Below, piece by piece: positions 11,977-14,104 of a DNA stretch of 64,000 bases. Numbering within the stretch: position 1 is the stretch's first letter; each line of letters opens with the position of its first letter. The translations under genes and the position numbers were made by a program. Source of the stretch: an uncultured Pelagibacteraceae bacterium (GTDB taxonomy: Bacteria; Pseudomonadota; Alphaproteobacteria; Pelagibacterales; Pelagibacteraceae); the NCBI GenBank assembly GCA_902582315.1, contig CACHRP010000005.1, positions 62,001 through 126,000 on the forward strand, written 5' to 3'. The notes beneath the pieces were generated by a model that saw only the letters and a program-made list of their open reading frames with translations, was not told the DNA's origin and did no database searches.

Positions 11977-12906
11977 ATGAAAATTTTAGGGATAGGAAAT
12001 GCAATTGTAGACGTCATTTGTAAAGTAGAGGATGATTTTTTGGAGAAAAATAATTTAACTAAGAGCACAATGAAACTAATTTTTGATGACAAAGAGTTCA
12101 AGAATTTACTATCCAGTCTTAAAATAGAAAAGACTGTTTCTGGCGGTTCAGTTGCTAATTCAATCGTTGGCTTATCTCAATTAGGCAATGACGTTGGTTT
12201 TATTGGTAAAGTTTCTGATGATGAGCTAGGTGGAAAATATGAAGAAGGACTAAAACAAGAAAATGTTAAATATTTTTATTCAAAAAAAAAGGAGGAACTT
12301 CCAACAGGAACTTGTTTAATACTAGTAACTCCGGACTCCGAAAGGACCATGTGTACTTTTTTAGGTACAGCAGGAAAAATAAATGAAAATGATGTTAGCG
12401 CAGATGCAATCAAACAAAGTGAAATTATTCTTTTAGAGGGGTATTTATGGGATGAAGGCGATCCTAAAAAAGCATTTGATAAAGCAATACAAAATGCTAA
12501 CAGAGTCGCTATGTCTTTATCAGATCAATTTTGTGTTGATAGACATAAAACTCATTTTCTAGATCTTGTAAAAAATAAACTGGATATAACTTTTGCAAAC
12601 GAACAAGAAATAATGTCATTAATAGACGCAAAATCTTTCGATGAAGTAATTAATTTTTCTAAGTCTCTTGGCAAAACAATAGTTTTAACCCGGGGTGAAA
12701 AAGGGGCAGTTGCAATTGATAAAGATCAAGTTGCGGAATGTGGAATAAAGCAAGGACTTAAAATTGTAGACTTAACTGGCGCTGGTGATCTTTTTGCAGC
12801 AGGTTTTTTACACAGCTATGTAAATAATATGTCTCTTAAAGAAAGCCTAGATAAAGGTACTGAAATGTCATCAAAGGTTATACAGCAGATAGGTGCTAGG
12901 CTTTAG
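11977..12906 (+). CDS. PfkB-family carbohydrate kinase (adenosine kinase-like)
   Basis: ATP-dependent kinase of the ribokinase superfamily. The start MKILGIGNAIVDVICKVED is typical, so I use the ATG at 11977 (309 residues), one base after the nth stop; an in-frame extension reaching into nth is not needed. The glycine motif SGGSVANSIVGLSQLG is near residue 45 and the catalytic signature DLTGAGDLFAAGF, with the base Asp, is near 262. The AIVDV start and insertion pattern resemble the alphaproteobacterial adenosine-kinase/sugar-kinase subgroup, but the substrate (adenosine, inosine or a sugar) cannot be settled from sequence alone. Confidence 0.88.
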   Translation: MKILGIGNAIVDVICKVEDDFLEKNNLTKSTMKLIFDDKEFKNLLSSLKIEKTVSGGSVANSIVGLSQLGNDVGFIGKVSDDELGGKYEEGLKQENVKYFYSKKKEELPTGTCLILVTPDSERTMCTFLGTAGKINENDVSADAIKQSEIILLEGYLWDEGDPKKAFDKAIQNANRVAMSLSDQFCVDRHKTHFLDLVKNKLDITFANEQEIMSLIDAKSFDEVINFSKSLGKTIVLTRGEKGAVAIDKDQVAECGIKQGLKIVDLTGAGDLFAAGFLHSYVNNMSLKESLDKGTEMSSKVIQQIGARL

Positions 12907-12915
12907 TGTAATTTT

Positions 12916-13023
12916 TTATTTTTTTTTTCTTTTAAAACTTCCTTTACCTTTTTTTGGTTTGATCACCCTAGGCTTATATTTAGGTGTCATTAAATCTTTA
13001 GCTATAGAATTTTTTTTTTTCAT
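12916..13023 (-). CDS. arfA: ArfA-like alternative ribosome-rescue factor (35 residues)
   Basis: Hand-translated micro-gene of 35 codons. The segment RVIKPKKGKGSFKRKKK matches the core of enterobacterial ArfA (RVEKNKKGKGSYMRKGK), and the upstream NSIAKDLMTPKYKP aligns with NAIEALLHDPLFRQ. ArfA recruits RF2 to ribosomes stalled on stop-less mRNA, backing up tmRNA. The ATG at 13021-13023 overlaps the TGA of the upstream winged-helix gene (TGATG), so translation is probably coupled. It lacks the N-terminal residues before the conserved NAI and the non-essential hydrophobic C-terminus of the E. coli protein. I rate the family match as strong for so short a peptide; function is inferred. Confidence 0.75.
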   Translation of the reverse strand: MKKKNSIAKDLMTPKYKPRVIKPKKGKGSFKRKKK

Positions 13024-13601
13024 CAAATAAAGTAACCTTTCTTATCGCTCTTTATAAAGTTTTGATCATTAAAGCTTTTTTTTATTTTTTTTCTAAGCCT
13101 ATACACATGGGTTTCAACCGTATGCGTCTCTAGTTCTTGCGTGTGACCCCATACCTCTTTTTGCAAAATATCAATATTAATTGGTTTATTTTGATCTTTT
13201 AAAAATAAGATTATTTGAATTTCTCTTTCTGTGAGTTTTAATTTGCCTACTTTTGAAGATATAATTCTAGAATTTATATCTAATTTATAACTTTCTATAT
13301 TTATATTTGACTGAAAATCATATTGTTGCATCAACAAAGTTGAATTAATTTTTTCAACTAAACTGAAAAAATTTAATGGAAGAGTGTCTGTAGTGATAAT
13401 TTGTTTATTATTTATATAATCTTCGTTAAATTTTTTTTTTGTCACTACTATGAAATTTTTATCAGGTCTTTTTTTTTGATTATCTATTATCCATTTTACA
13501 TCTTCAGAATTAAATAAATCAAAATTAAAAAAGTTTTTAATCTCATAAATAATATTATATAAATCTTCGAAGTTTAAAATATAAACAGCAGATTTATTCA
13601 T
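13023..13601 (-). CDS. OmpR-type winged-helix regulator with degenerate N-terminal domain
   Basis: A 192-residue protein. The C-terminal third (about 105-192) is a clear OmpR/PhoB winged-helix DNA-binding domain: KLTEREIQIILFLKD, LQKEVWG, and the recognition-helix region ETHTVETHVYRLRKKI followed by the wing (FIKSDKKGYFI). The N-terminal region occupies the place of a receiver domain but has no recognisable acidic pocket, phospho-acceptor Asp or conserved Lys, so it is probably not phosphorylated. It ends in a TGATG overlap with the ArfA-like gene and diverges from the YkuD gene across only 11 bases. Targets are unknown; self-regulation or control of the adjacent cell-wall enzyme is possible. 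Confidence 0.8.
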   Translation of the reverse strand: MNKSAVYILNFEDLYNIIYEIKNFFNFDLFNSEDVKWIIDNQKKRPDKNFIVVTKKKFNEDYINNKQIITTDTLPLNFFSLVEKINSTLLMQQYDFQSNINIESYKLDINSRIISSKVGKLKLTEREIQIILFLKDQNKPINIDILQKEVWGHTQELETHTVETHVYRLRKKIKKSFNDQNFIKSDKKGYFI

Positions 13602-13612
13602 TTGATTAATTT

Positions 13613-14104
13613 ATGCTAATAAAAGTTAAAAATAAAGATACTTTGCTTTTTGATGACTTTATTTTTCGTTGTGTTGTTGGAAAAAAGGGAGTTTCTAAGA
13701 AAAAAAAAGAGGGGGATTTTTGTACACCCAAAGGATCCTTTAAGTTGAAAACAGTTTATTATAGACCCGATAGAGTAAAAAAAATTCAAACAAAGTTAAA
13801 TACTAAAAAAATTAATCCAAATATGGGTTGGTGCAATGATCCACTAAATGAAAAATATAATTCTTTGATTAAAATCAATGGAAAAATTAGACATGAAAAA
13901 CTTTACAGAAGAGATAATAAGTATGACATTCTTTTAGTAATTGATTATAATTTAAGAAAACCTATACCATTTAAGGGAAGTGCAATATTCATTCACTTAA
14001 CAAAAAATTTTAAAAGCACAGCAGGGTGTATAGCTCTAAATAAAAAAGACTTTTTAATACTGTTAAAATTAGTGAATAAAAAAACTAGGATTAAAATTTT
14101 TTAA
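13613..14104 (+). CDS. YkuD-fold L,D-transpeptidase family protein
   Basis: Probable peptidoglycan-modifying enzyme of 163 residues. The active-site region FIHLTKNFKSTAGCIALNKKDF fits the YkuD pattern (His, then S-x-GC-x-x-L with catalytic Cys near residue 141). KKEGDFCTPKGSFKLKTVYYRP corresponds to the family's GDxxTPxGxF segment. There is no signal peptide, so export is unclear; short unprocessed members of this group are known. It diverges from the winged-helix regulator after 11 bases and converges with the YggS gene with a four-base overlap. Confidence 0.82.
   Translation: MLIKVKNKDTLLFDDFIFRCVVGKKGVSKKKKEGDFCTPKGSFKLKTVYYRPDRVKKIQTKLNTKKINPNMGWCNDPLNEKYNSLIKINGKIRHEKLYRRDNKYDILLVIDYNLRKPIPFKGSAIFIHLTKNFKSTAGCIALNKKDFLILLKLVNKKTRIKIF

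Follow-up and report, generated by a model that had tools for sequence, protein, structure and literature searches.

The 35-codon gene that begins at the stop codon of an OmpR-type regulator in an uncultured member of the Pelagibacteraceae (SAR11) encodes a peptide that, on good sequence support, belongs to the ArfA ribosome-rescue family and is short by nature, and the way in which the gene joins the regulator is conserved. Few bacterial groups on Earth are as abundant as SAR11. The window (the whole stretch of 64,000 nucleotides that was analysed) comes from a genome whose 23 contigs add up to 1.18 Mb. We consider it quite probable that this short ArfA acts like that of E. coli, as the likely sole backup to tmRNA-SmpB, and that its gene is co-transcribed with and coupled to the regulator, for which a divergent ykuD gene is the constant partner. 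Rescue activity, use of RF2, co-transcription, coupling and any control by the regulator are what we infer from sequence features. The features around arfA are collected in the table.

Features around arfA, numbered from the first nucleotide of the window
Feature	Position	Strand	Basis
pfkB-family kinase, convergent neighbour	11977..12906	+	PF00294 156.8 bits; synteny
arfA, 35 codons and its own TAA stop	12916..13023	-	PF03889 29.2 bits; order-wide profile matches; purifying selection
TGATG stop/start overlap of regulator and arfA	13021..13025	-	sequence
OmpR-type regulator, degenerate receiver and winged helix (Trans_reg_C), 192 aa	13023..13601	-	PF00486 45 bits; AlphaFold; Foldseek; VIA-align
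Head-to-head regulator/ykuD start region, candidate two-way promoter/operator	13512..13642	.	lowered synonymous divergence in the window's own clade
ykuD-type L,D-transpeptidase, divergent from regulator	13613..14104	+	PF03734 59.3 bits; adjacent in 66/66 loci

On the minus strand, arfA runs from an ATG at 13023–13021 to a TAA at 12918–12916, and its product has 35 residues (MKKKNSIAKDLMTPKYKPRVIKPKKGKGSFKRKKK). A sequence-only reading of this DNA had proposed a hidden gene, too short for ordinary gene calls, with the ArfA core and an aligned N-terminal segment, and both proposals were confirmed: ordinary gene finding misses the open reading frame, and the peptide passes the curated cut-off of Pfam PF03889 (29.2 bits, E 6.5e-7, against 25.5 bits). 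In phmmer, 33 residues align with E. coli ArfA as present in solved ribosome structures, the best E value being 0.0016. With E. coli ArfA (YhdL) the peptide shares the core RVxKxKKGKGS(F/Y)xRK and the aligned N-terminal segment, and the basic part of this core, KKGKGS(F/Y)xRK, is conserved in SAR11. In an alignment of 36 of the 55 SAR11 arfA peptides found here (profile A1, first codons read as M), M1, N5, L11, K24, K25, G26, K27, G28 and R32 are invariant. The NCBIfam profiles gave no match for the peptide, and a PHROGs search returned one unnamed family (E 0.0042).

The peptide is far shorter than its E. coli counterpart, with 35 codons compared to 72, and three points count against an action like that of E. 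coli ArfA. Residue 3 pairs with residue 12 of the 72-residue chain 5h5u_3, which leaves about nine N-terminal residues missing; the N-terminus of E. coli ArfA is described as becoming ordered upon the opening of RF2 (PMC5378476). At the other end the alignment stops at residue 44 of the same chain, some three residues short of Asn47, where the shortest functional E. coli truncation in that account ends (PMC5378476). Lastly, the near-invariant Ala8 of the SAR11 peptides falls, in a gapless alignment, one position ahead of E. coli Ala18, whose replacement by Thr is given as inactivating (PMC8012679). Under an alternative reading the peptide, which is shorter at both ends and very basic, binds the ribosome or RNA but changed its use after the N-terminal loss and is not an RF2-dependent rescue factor. 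We hold this to be improbable, as the ArfA core is retained under purifying selection and no ArfB-size gene was found in the SAR11 genomes surveyed below.

Homologues are spread across the order. Of 99 genomes in the family, 69 match the ArfA profile at E ≤ 0.1, and 50 of these lie above the Pfam cut-off; the match in G019 (E 0.034, within a 141-residue frame) is regarded as due to chance. In the order, 119 of 197 genomes have a match at E ≤ 0.001, although only 64 of these 119 exceed the cut-off, and among the more complete genomes the count is 112 of 149. In a sample of the class such matches are rare, at 9 of 387 genomes, three of the nine being SAR11. ArfA has been described as limited to some beta- and gamma-proteobacteria (PMC6881298), and the E. 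coli ArfA family is reported as absent from the Alphaproteobacteria, the class to which SAR11 arfA belongs: Table 1 of a published survey lists ArfA in 0 and ArfB in 2,022 of 2,376 of them (PMC11633108). We did not find a SAR11 host arfA gene in the open-licence PMC literature.

Arrangement and selection were studied in 66 loci: the window, five relatives that are likewise uncultured Pelagibacteraceae of SAR11 (L001–L005), and 60 fetched loci from 59 genomes (G012 occurs twice), picked from a longer set of regulator matches. The second G012 locus, G012b, may come from a contaminating contig that is closely related to G026. Among the relatives, L001 has the regulator most like that of the window (84%), and compared with its arfA the window's gene has seven synonymous differences and one non-synonymous difference over 30 codons (pN 0.014, pS 0.40). 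Over 523 unsaturated pairs of 1,485 the arfA frame has a median pN/pS of 0.33, and the gene is under purifying selection. The possibility that arfA is a chance open reading frame, in AT-rich and lysine-rich sequence where the convergent pfkB gene ends, draws on its being short and A-rich; we give it next to no chance and rejected it on the order-wide conservation (119 of 197 genomes) and on the selection, since the same stretch read in its five other frames has medians of 1.1, 1.5, 1.5, 1.6 and, in one antisense frame, 0.42.

A survey of the other rescue systems covered 29 SAR11 genomes, 18 with canonical arfA and 11 without. An alpha tmRNA was found in all 29, and SmpB in 27; it was not found in G541 and G015, both of which are in several contigs. 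Matches to the RF-1 domain number two per genome in 28 of the 29, in frames of 343–374 residues. The exception, G028, has three matches in frames of 346, 259 and 271 residues on separate contigs, which probably reflects one split gene. ArfB has about 140 residues (PMC8012679), and an RF-1-domain frame of that size was seen in none of the 29 genomes; ArfA is therefore probably the sole backup to tmRNA-SmpB in SAR11. BrfA and ArfT are, like ArfA, small recruiters of release factors, BrfA being described as unrelated to ArfA in sequence and ArfT as a distinct group (PMC6881298). In the mechanism that we favour, the basic tail of the short ArfA would enter the mRNA channel that is left empty when a ribosome stalls at a broken mRNA end, and the rest of the peptide would recruit and open RF2, upon which the nascent chain would be released.

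The ATG of arfA and the TGA of the regulator share base 13023. The sequence-only reading had pointed to this overlap and raised the conservation of the regulator as a neighbour; both hold well beyond the window. Of the 66 loci 55 carry arfA, which starts within the regulator in 43, 0–12 nt past its stop in eight and 1.5–2.4 kb away in four, so that 51 of 55 overlap or lie within 12 nt. The commonest form of the junction is a 4-nt overlap (32 of the 55). Start codons are ATG in 22 loci, TTG in 20 and GTG in 13, GTG or TTG thus being used in 33 of 55. The four loci with a remote arfA (L072, L065, L071 and L096) belong to genera g9 and g7.

This geometry fits coupling by termination and reinitiation without proving it. 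Under the favoured mechanism arfA would be co-transcribed with the upstream regulator, and ribosomes finishing the regulator would go on to translate arfA by termination-reinitiation at the overlapping stop and start codons. In the window's own clade, g2 and g4, the final ten codons of the regulator show no reduction in synonymous divergence (1.03, 0.86 and 1.02), and a conserved ribosome-binding site within these codons is therefore absent there; the lower values in clades g3 and g12 (0.59 and 0.38) count against the favoured mechanism. E. coli arfA has no such overlap of its start with a regulator gene. It can, however, overlap the 3′ end of the convergent mscL gene, and SAR11 arfA does likewise with its own convergent neighbour, the 3′ end of pfkB overlapping arfA antisense in several relatives.

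Control of the gene also differs from that in E. coli, where the arfA mRNA is cut or ended inside the gene and the truncated ArfA escapes only if trans-translation fails or is overwhelmed (PMC8012679). All 55 SAR11 arfA genes have an in-frame stop. The fold z-score has a median of 0.28 over the 55 SAR11 arfA regions, the window's own value also being 0.28, whereas E. coli arfA scores −2.2 over the whole gene and −3.9 over its last 120 nt. Three SAR11 regions fall below −2 (L003 at −3.0, G093 at −2.8 and G066 at −2.2) and count against a uniform picture. No terminator-like site was found in a scan of positions 12700–13900 of the window. On these three lines of evidence the non-stop switch of E. 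coli, with its hairpin and non-stop mRNA, is not general in SAR11, where arfA has its own stop and no general mRNA hairpin, and the earlier suggestion that control of the E. coli type is lacking here was upheld. For the A-rich 3′ end, slippage and non-stop control were both rejected, as the A run and the stop vary among relatives and there is no general hairpin or terminator. Coupled translation, as judged from the junctions, is the likely substitute, and would give a low and steady expression of ArfA without the E. coli non-stop-mRNA switch.

The regulator had been called receiver-less, without a recognisable phospho-acceptor site, and only the second part of this description can be kept. Its AlphaFold model (pLDDT 86.6) has a short beta/alpha N-terminal domain followed by the winged helix, and in Foldseek and VIA-align it aligns end to end with response regulators of the OmpR family. 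The effector domain alone reaches a VIA-align Z of about 13, with an rmsd of 2–3 Å over 90–100 residues; matches of the whole model span residues 3–192 at 6.6–16 Å, and that of the N-terminal domain is loose. On the predicted model, degenerate would be a better word for the receiver than missing. In an alignment of 47 of the 66 regulators (A2) the phosphorylation residues are not conserved: strands 1 and 3 are not followed by a conserved D/E, nor is the invariant Pro75 preceded by a conserved Lys. Orphan OmpR-type regulators of solved structure, namely RitR, CosR and 2hqr (which we take to be HP1043), match the window regulator in fold from end to end. RitR senses redox through a cysteine. The window regulator, unlike RitR, has no cysteine at all, nor have 19 of the 66 regulators in total, and redox sensing of this kind was rejected.

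The neighbourhood of the regulator follows the order ThiE-YggS-YkuD-regulator-(arfA)-PfkB-Nth-DapB wherever the fetched stretch reaches, with exceptions around PfkB. In g7 and g9 no PfkB is seen after the regulator, in G040 and G083 it is further off, and in G093 and G051 it was not seen in the fetched stretch. In the 63 loci that could be measured, −9 to +24 bp separate the starts of ykuD and the regulator; the ykuD start was taken as that of the longest frame beginning at most 9 nt within the regulator, which makes −9 the edge of the scan. The head-to-head region of the window comprises the first 30 codons of the regulator, an 11-bp gap and the first ten codons of ykuD. Synonymous divergence in the window's own clade is low over these regulator codons (0.37, 0.16 and 0.38) and lowest over those of ykuD (0.09), compared to 0.43–1.03 elsewhere; it is also low in the first ten codons of regulator and ykuD in g12 (0.31 and 0.15), with little of this in g2 and g4. 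A two-way promoter or operator inside the facing coding ends of the two genes is possible and would explain the low divergence.

The regulator stands without an adjacent arfA in ten of the 66 loci (G003, G017, G026, G035, G074, G097, G012b, G005, G028 and G019), and in these the pfkB match ends 0–39 nt from the regulator stop. An eleventh such locus, G042, was set aside, its contig ending 43 nt after the regulator. With G042 excluded, the presence of arfA mapped onto the regulator tree requires five changes, at least three of them forced by well-supported branches. The ten loci and the tree together indicate that the regulator is retained as arfA is gained or lost. The constant partner of the regulator is the divergent ykuD, and arfA often belongs to the operon but can be dispensed with.

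This bears on the suggestion, made in the sequence-only reading, that regulator and rescue factor form a unit in this lineage. As a functional unit, the regulator would sense translation stress and, by way of its own operon, determine how much rescue factor is made; the joining in 51 of the 55 arfA loci, across nine of the twelve fetched genera, speaks for it, and the lack of conserved phosphorylation residues makes a signal other than a kinase plausible. The conserved joining thus stands, but a regulator that persists without arfA in ten loci and changes its arfA state five times on the tree, together with an arfA 1.5–2.4 kb away in four loci and a ykuD adjacent in 66 of 66, makes a functional unit in this sense rather unlikely in our estimate.

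A second type of ArfA-like peptide exists in SAR11. A search with profile A1 of 30 genomes, most of them without canonical arfA, turned up short ArfA-like peptides at other sites in genus g5 and in G616; these keep the N-terminal half of ArfA and end in KxKKxYNRKK, without GKGS. Loci of this type in SAR11 genomes without canonical arfA include L128, L126, L129, L130, L220, L221, L226–L233, L236 and L237. A profile built from such SAR11 GKGS-less peptides (A3) finds the second type in g5 and in 13 genomes of the window's own genus, where the peptides of all 13 were inspected. The 95 genomes of the genus that match canonical arfA include none of these 13, and eight of the 13 were confirmed on a repeat search; as the genomes are related, these counts are not independent events. 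Thirty genomes of the genus with canonical arfA were searched as well, and a separate gene of the second type was seen in none of them. Neither type was found at E ≤ 1, also with a further profile (A4), in eight genomes of the genus (G017, G026, G035, G074, G551, G585, G587 and G595). Matches to A3 are weaker in 40 genomes of a sister family, seven of which were inspected and keep the N-terminal half with a different basic tail, and in the class sample A3 matches 20 of 387 genomes, SAR11 accounting for four.

The second type leads to the Pfam family DUF7230 (PF23876), on which nothing was found in the open-licence PMC literature. Two of ten second-type peptides pass its threshold (42.8 and 29.6 bits), one equals it (27.0) and seven fall below. 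DUF7230 peptides have in common with ArfA the segment NPxAKxLRxPxYxxRVV and a Y-x-RK end, and differ from it in lacking the GKGS stretch; the window peptide has no DUF7230 match at E ≤ 1. In hhalign, SAR11 ArfA (A1) and a second-type set, some rows of which match DUF7230 (A4), are related with 97.5% probability (E 5.6e-12, score 53.3), the highest score among 200 column shuffles of the comparison being 15.6. The nine non-SAR11 rows of A4 alone still give 97.3% against SAR11 ArfA; these DUF7230-like rows were found by the SAR11-derived A3, and their likeness to ArfA is in part selected, whereas the Pfam DUF7230 scores are independent of it.

Phages carry the gene as well. At least 173 ArfA relatives occur on viral contigs among the first 600 pattern matches listed, of which 80 loci were kept (L134–L213, e.g. 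L144:5001–5090). The pelagiphage HTVC027P, with HTCC1062 as its recorded host, has the ArfA core NPVAKEVRTPKYKSQIIKPKKGRGSFKR in gp30 (L291:15768–15944), which its record labels "hypothetical protein" and which scores 20.6 bits against Pfam ArfA, below the cut-off. Its N-terminus is longer than that of the window ArfA and no regulator is listed beside it. A transcriptome study names gp30 as ArfA, with high early and late expression (PMC12753301), and g10 of the Citromicrobium phage RXM is given as a phage ArfA (PMC8953757). In HTVC115P (host HTCC7211), gp18 (L292:264–524) has the DUF7230-like N-terminal segment only (17.0 bits against a cut-off of 27). A tblastn search of phage records gave three matches at E 2–5 with the window peptide and none with a composite marine-virus peptide, although HTVC027P, with the ArfA core in its gp30, was among the records; searches of this kind evidently miss short basic proteins.

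A broader reading, which we put forward tentatively and hold to be somewhat less probable than an even chance, is that ArfA and DUF7230 may be two branches of one family of release-factor-recruiting rescue factors, largely unseen in the Alphaproteobacteria because the genes have 35–50 codons. SAR11 would have replaced ArfB by this family and linked it through translational coupling to an orphan regulator; several lineages would have swapped the canonical form for one without GKGS and others would have lost both, with the infecting phage HTVC027P bringing an ArfA of its own. If most SAR11 keep ArfA and the group lacks ArfB, the published distribution of ribosome rescue has to be redrawn; the finding would also provide an ArfA without the tmRNA-dependent switch, suggest a function for DUF7230 and supply a reason for the ArfA genes of marine phages.

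Two further observations concern the viral loci. L144 reads as a tailed phage in which a GroES-like open reading frame adjoins arfA. In L161, L188, L198 and L202 the ArfA-like open reading frames continue into another conserved segment (GNYTKPGMRKRLF...GQWSARKAQMLA...GGGY) and may be fusions.
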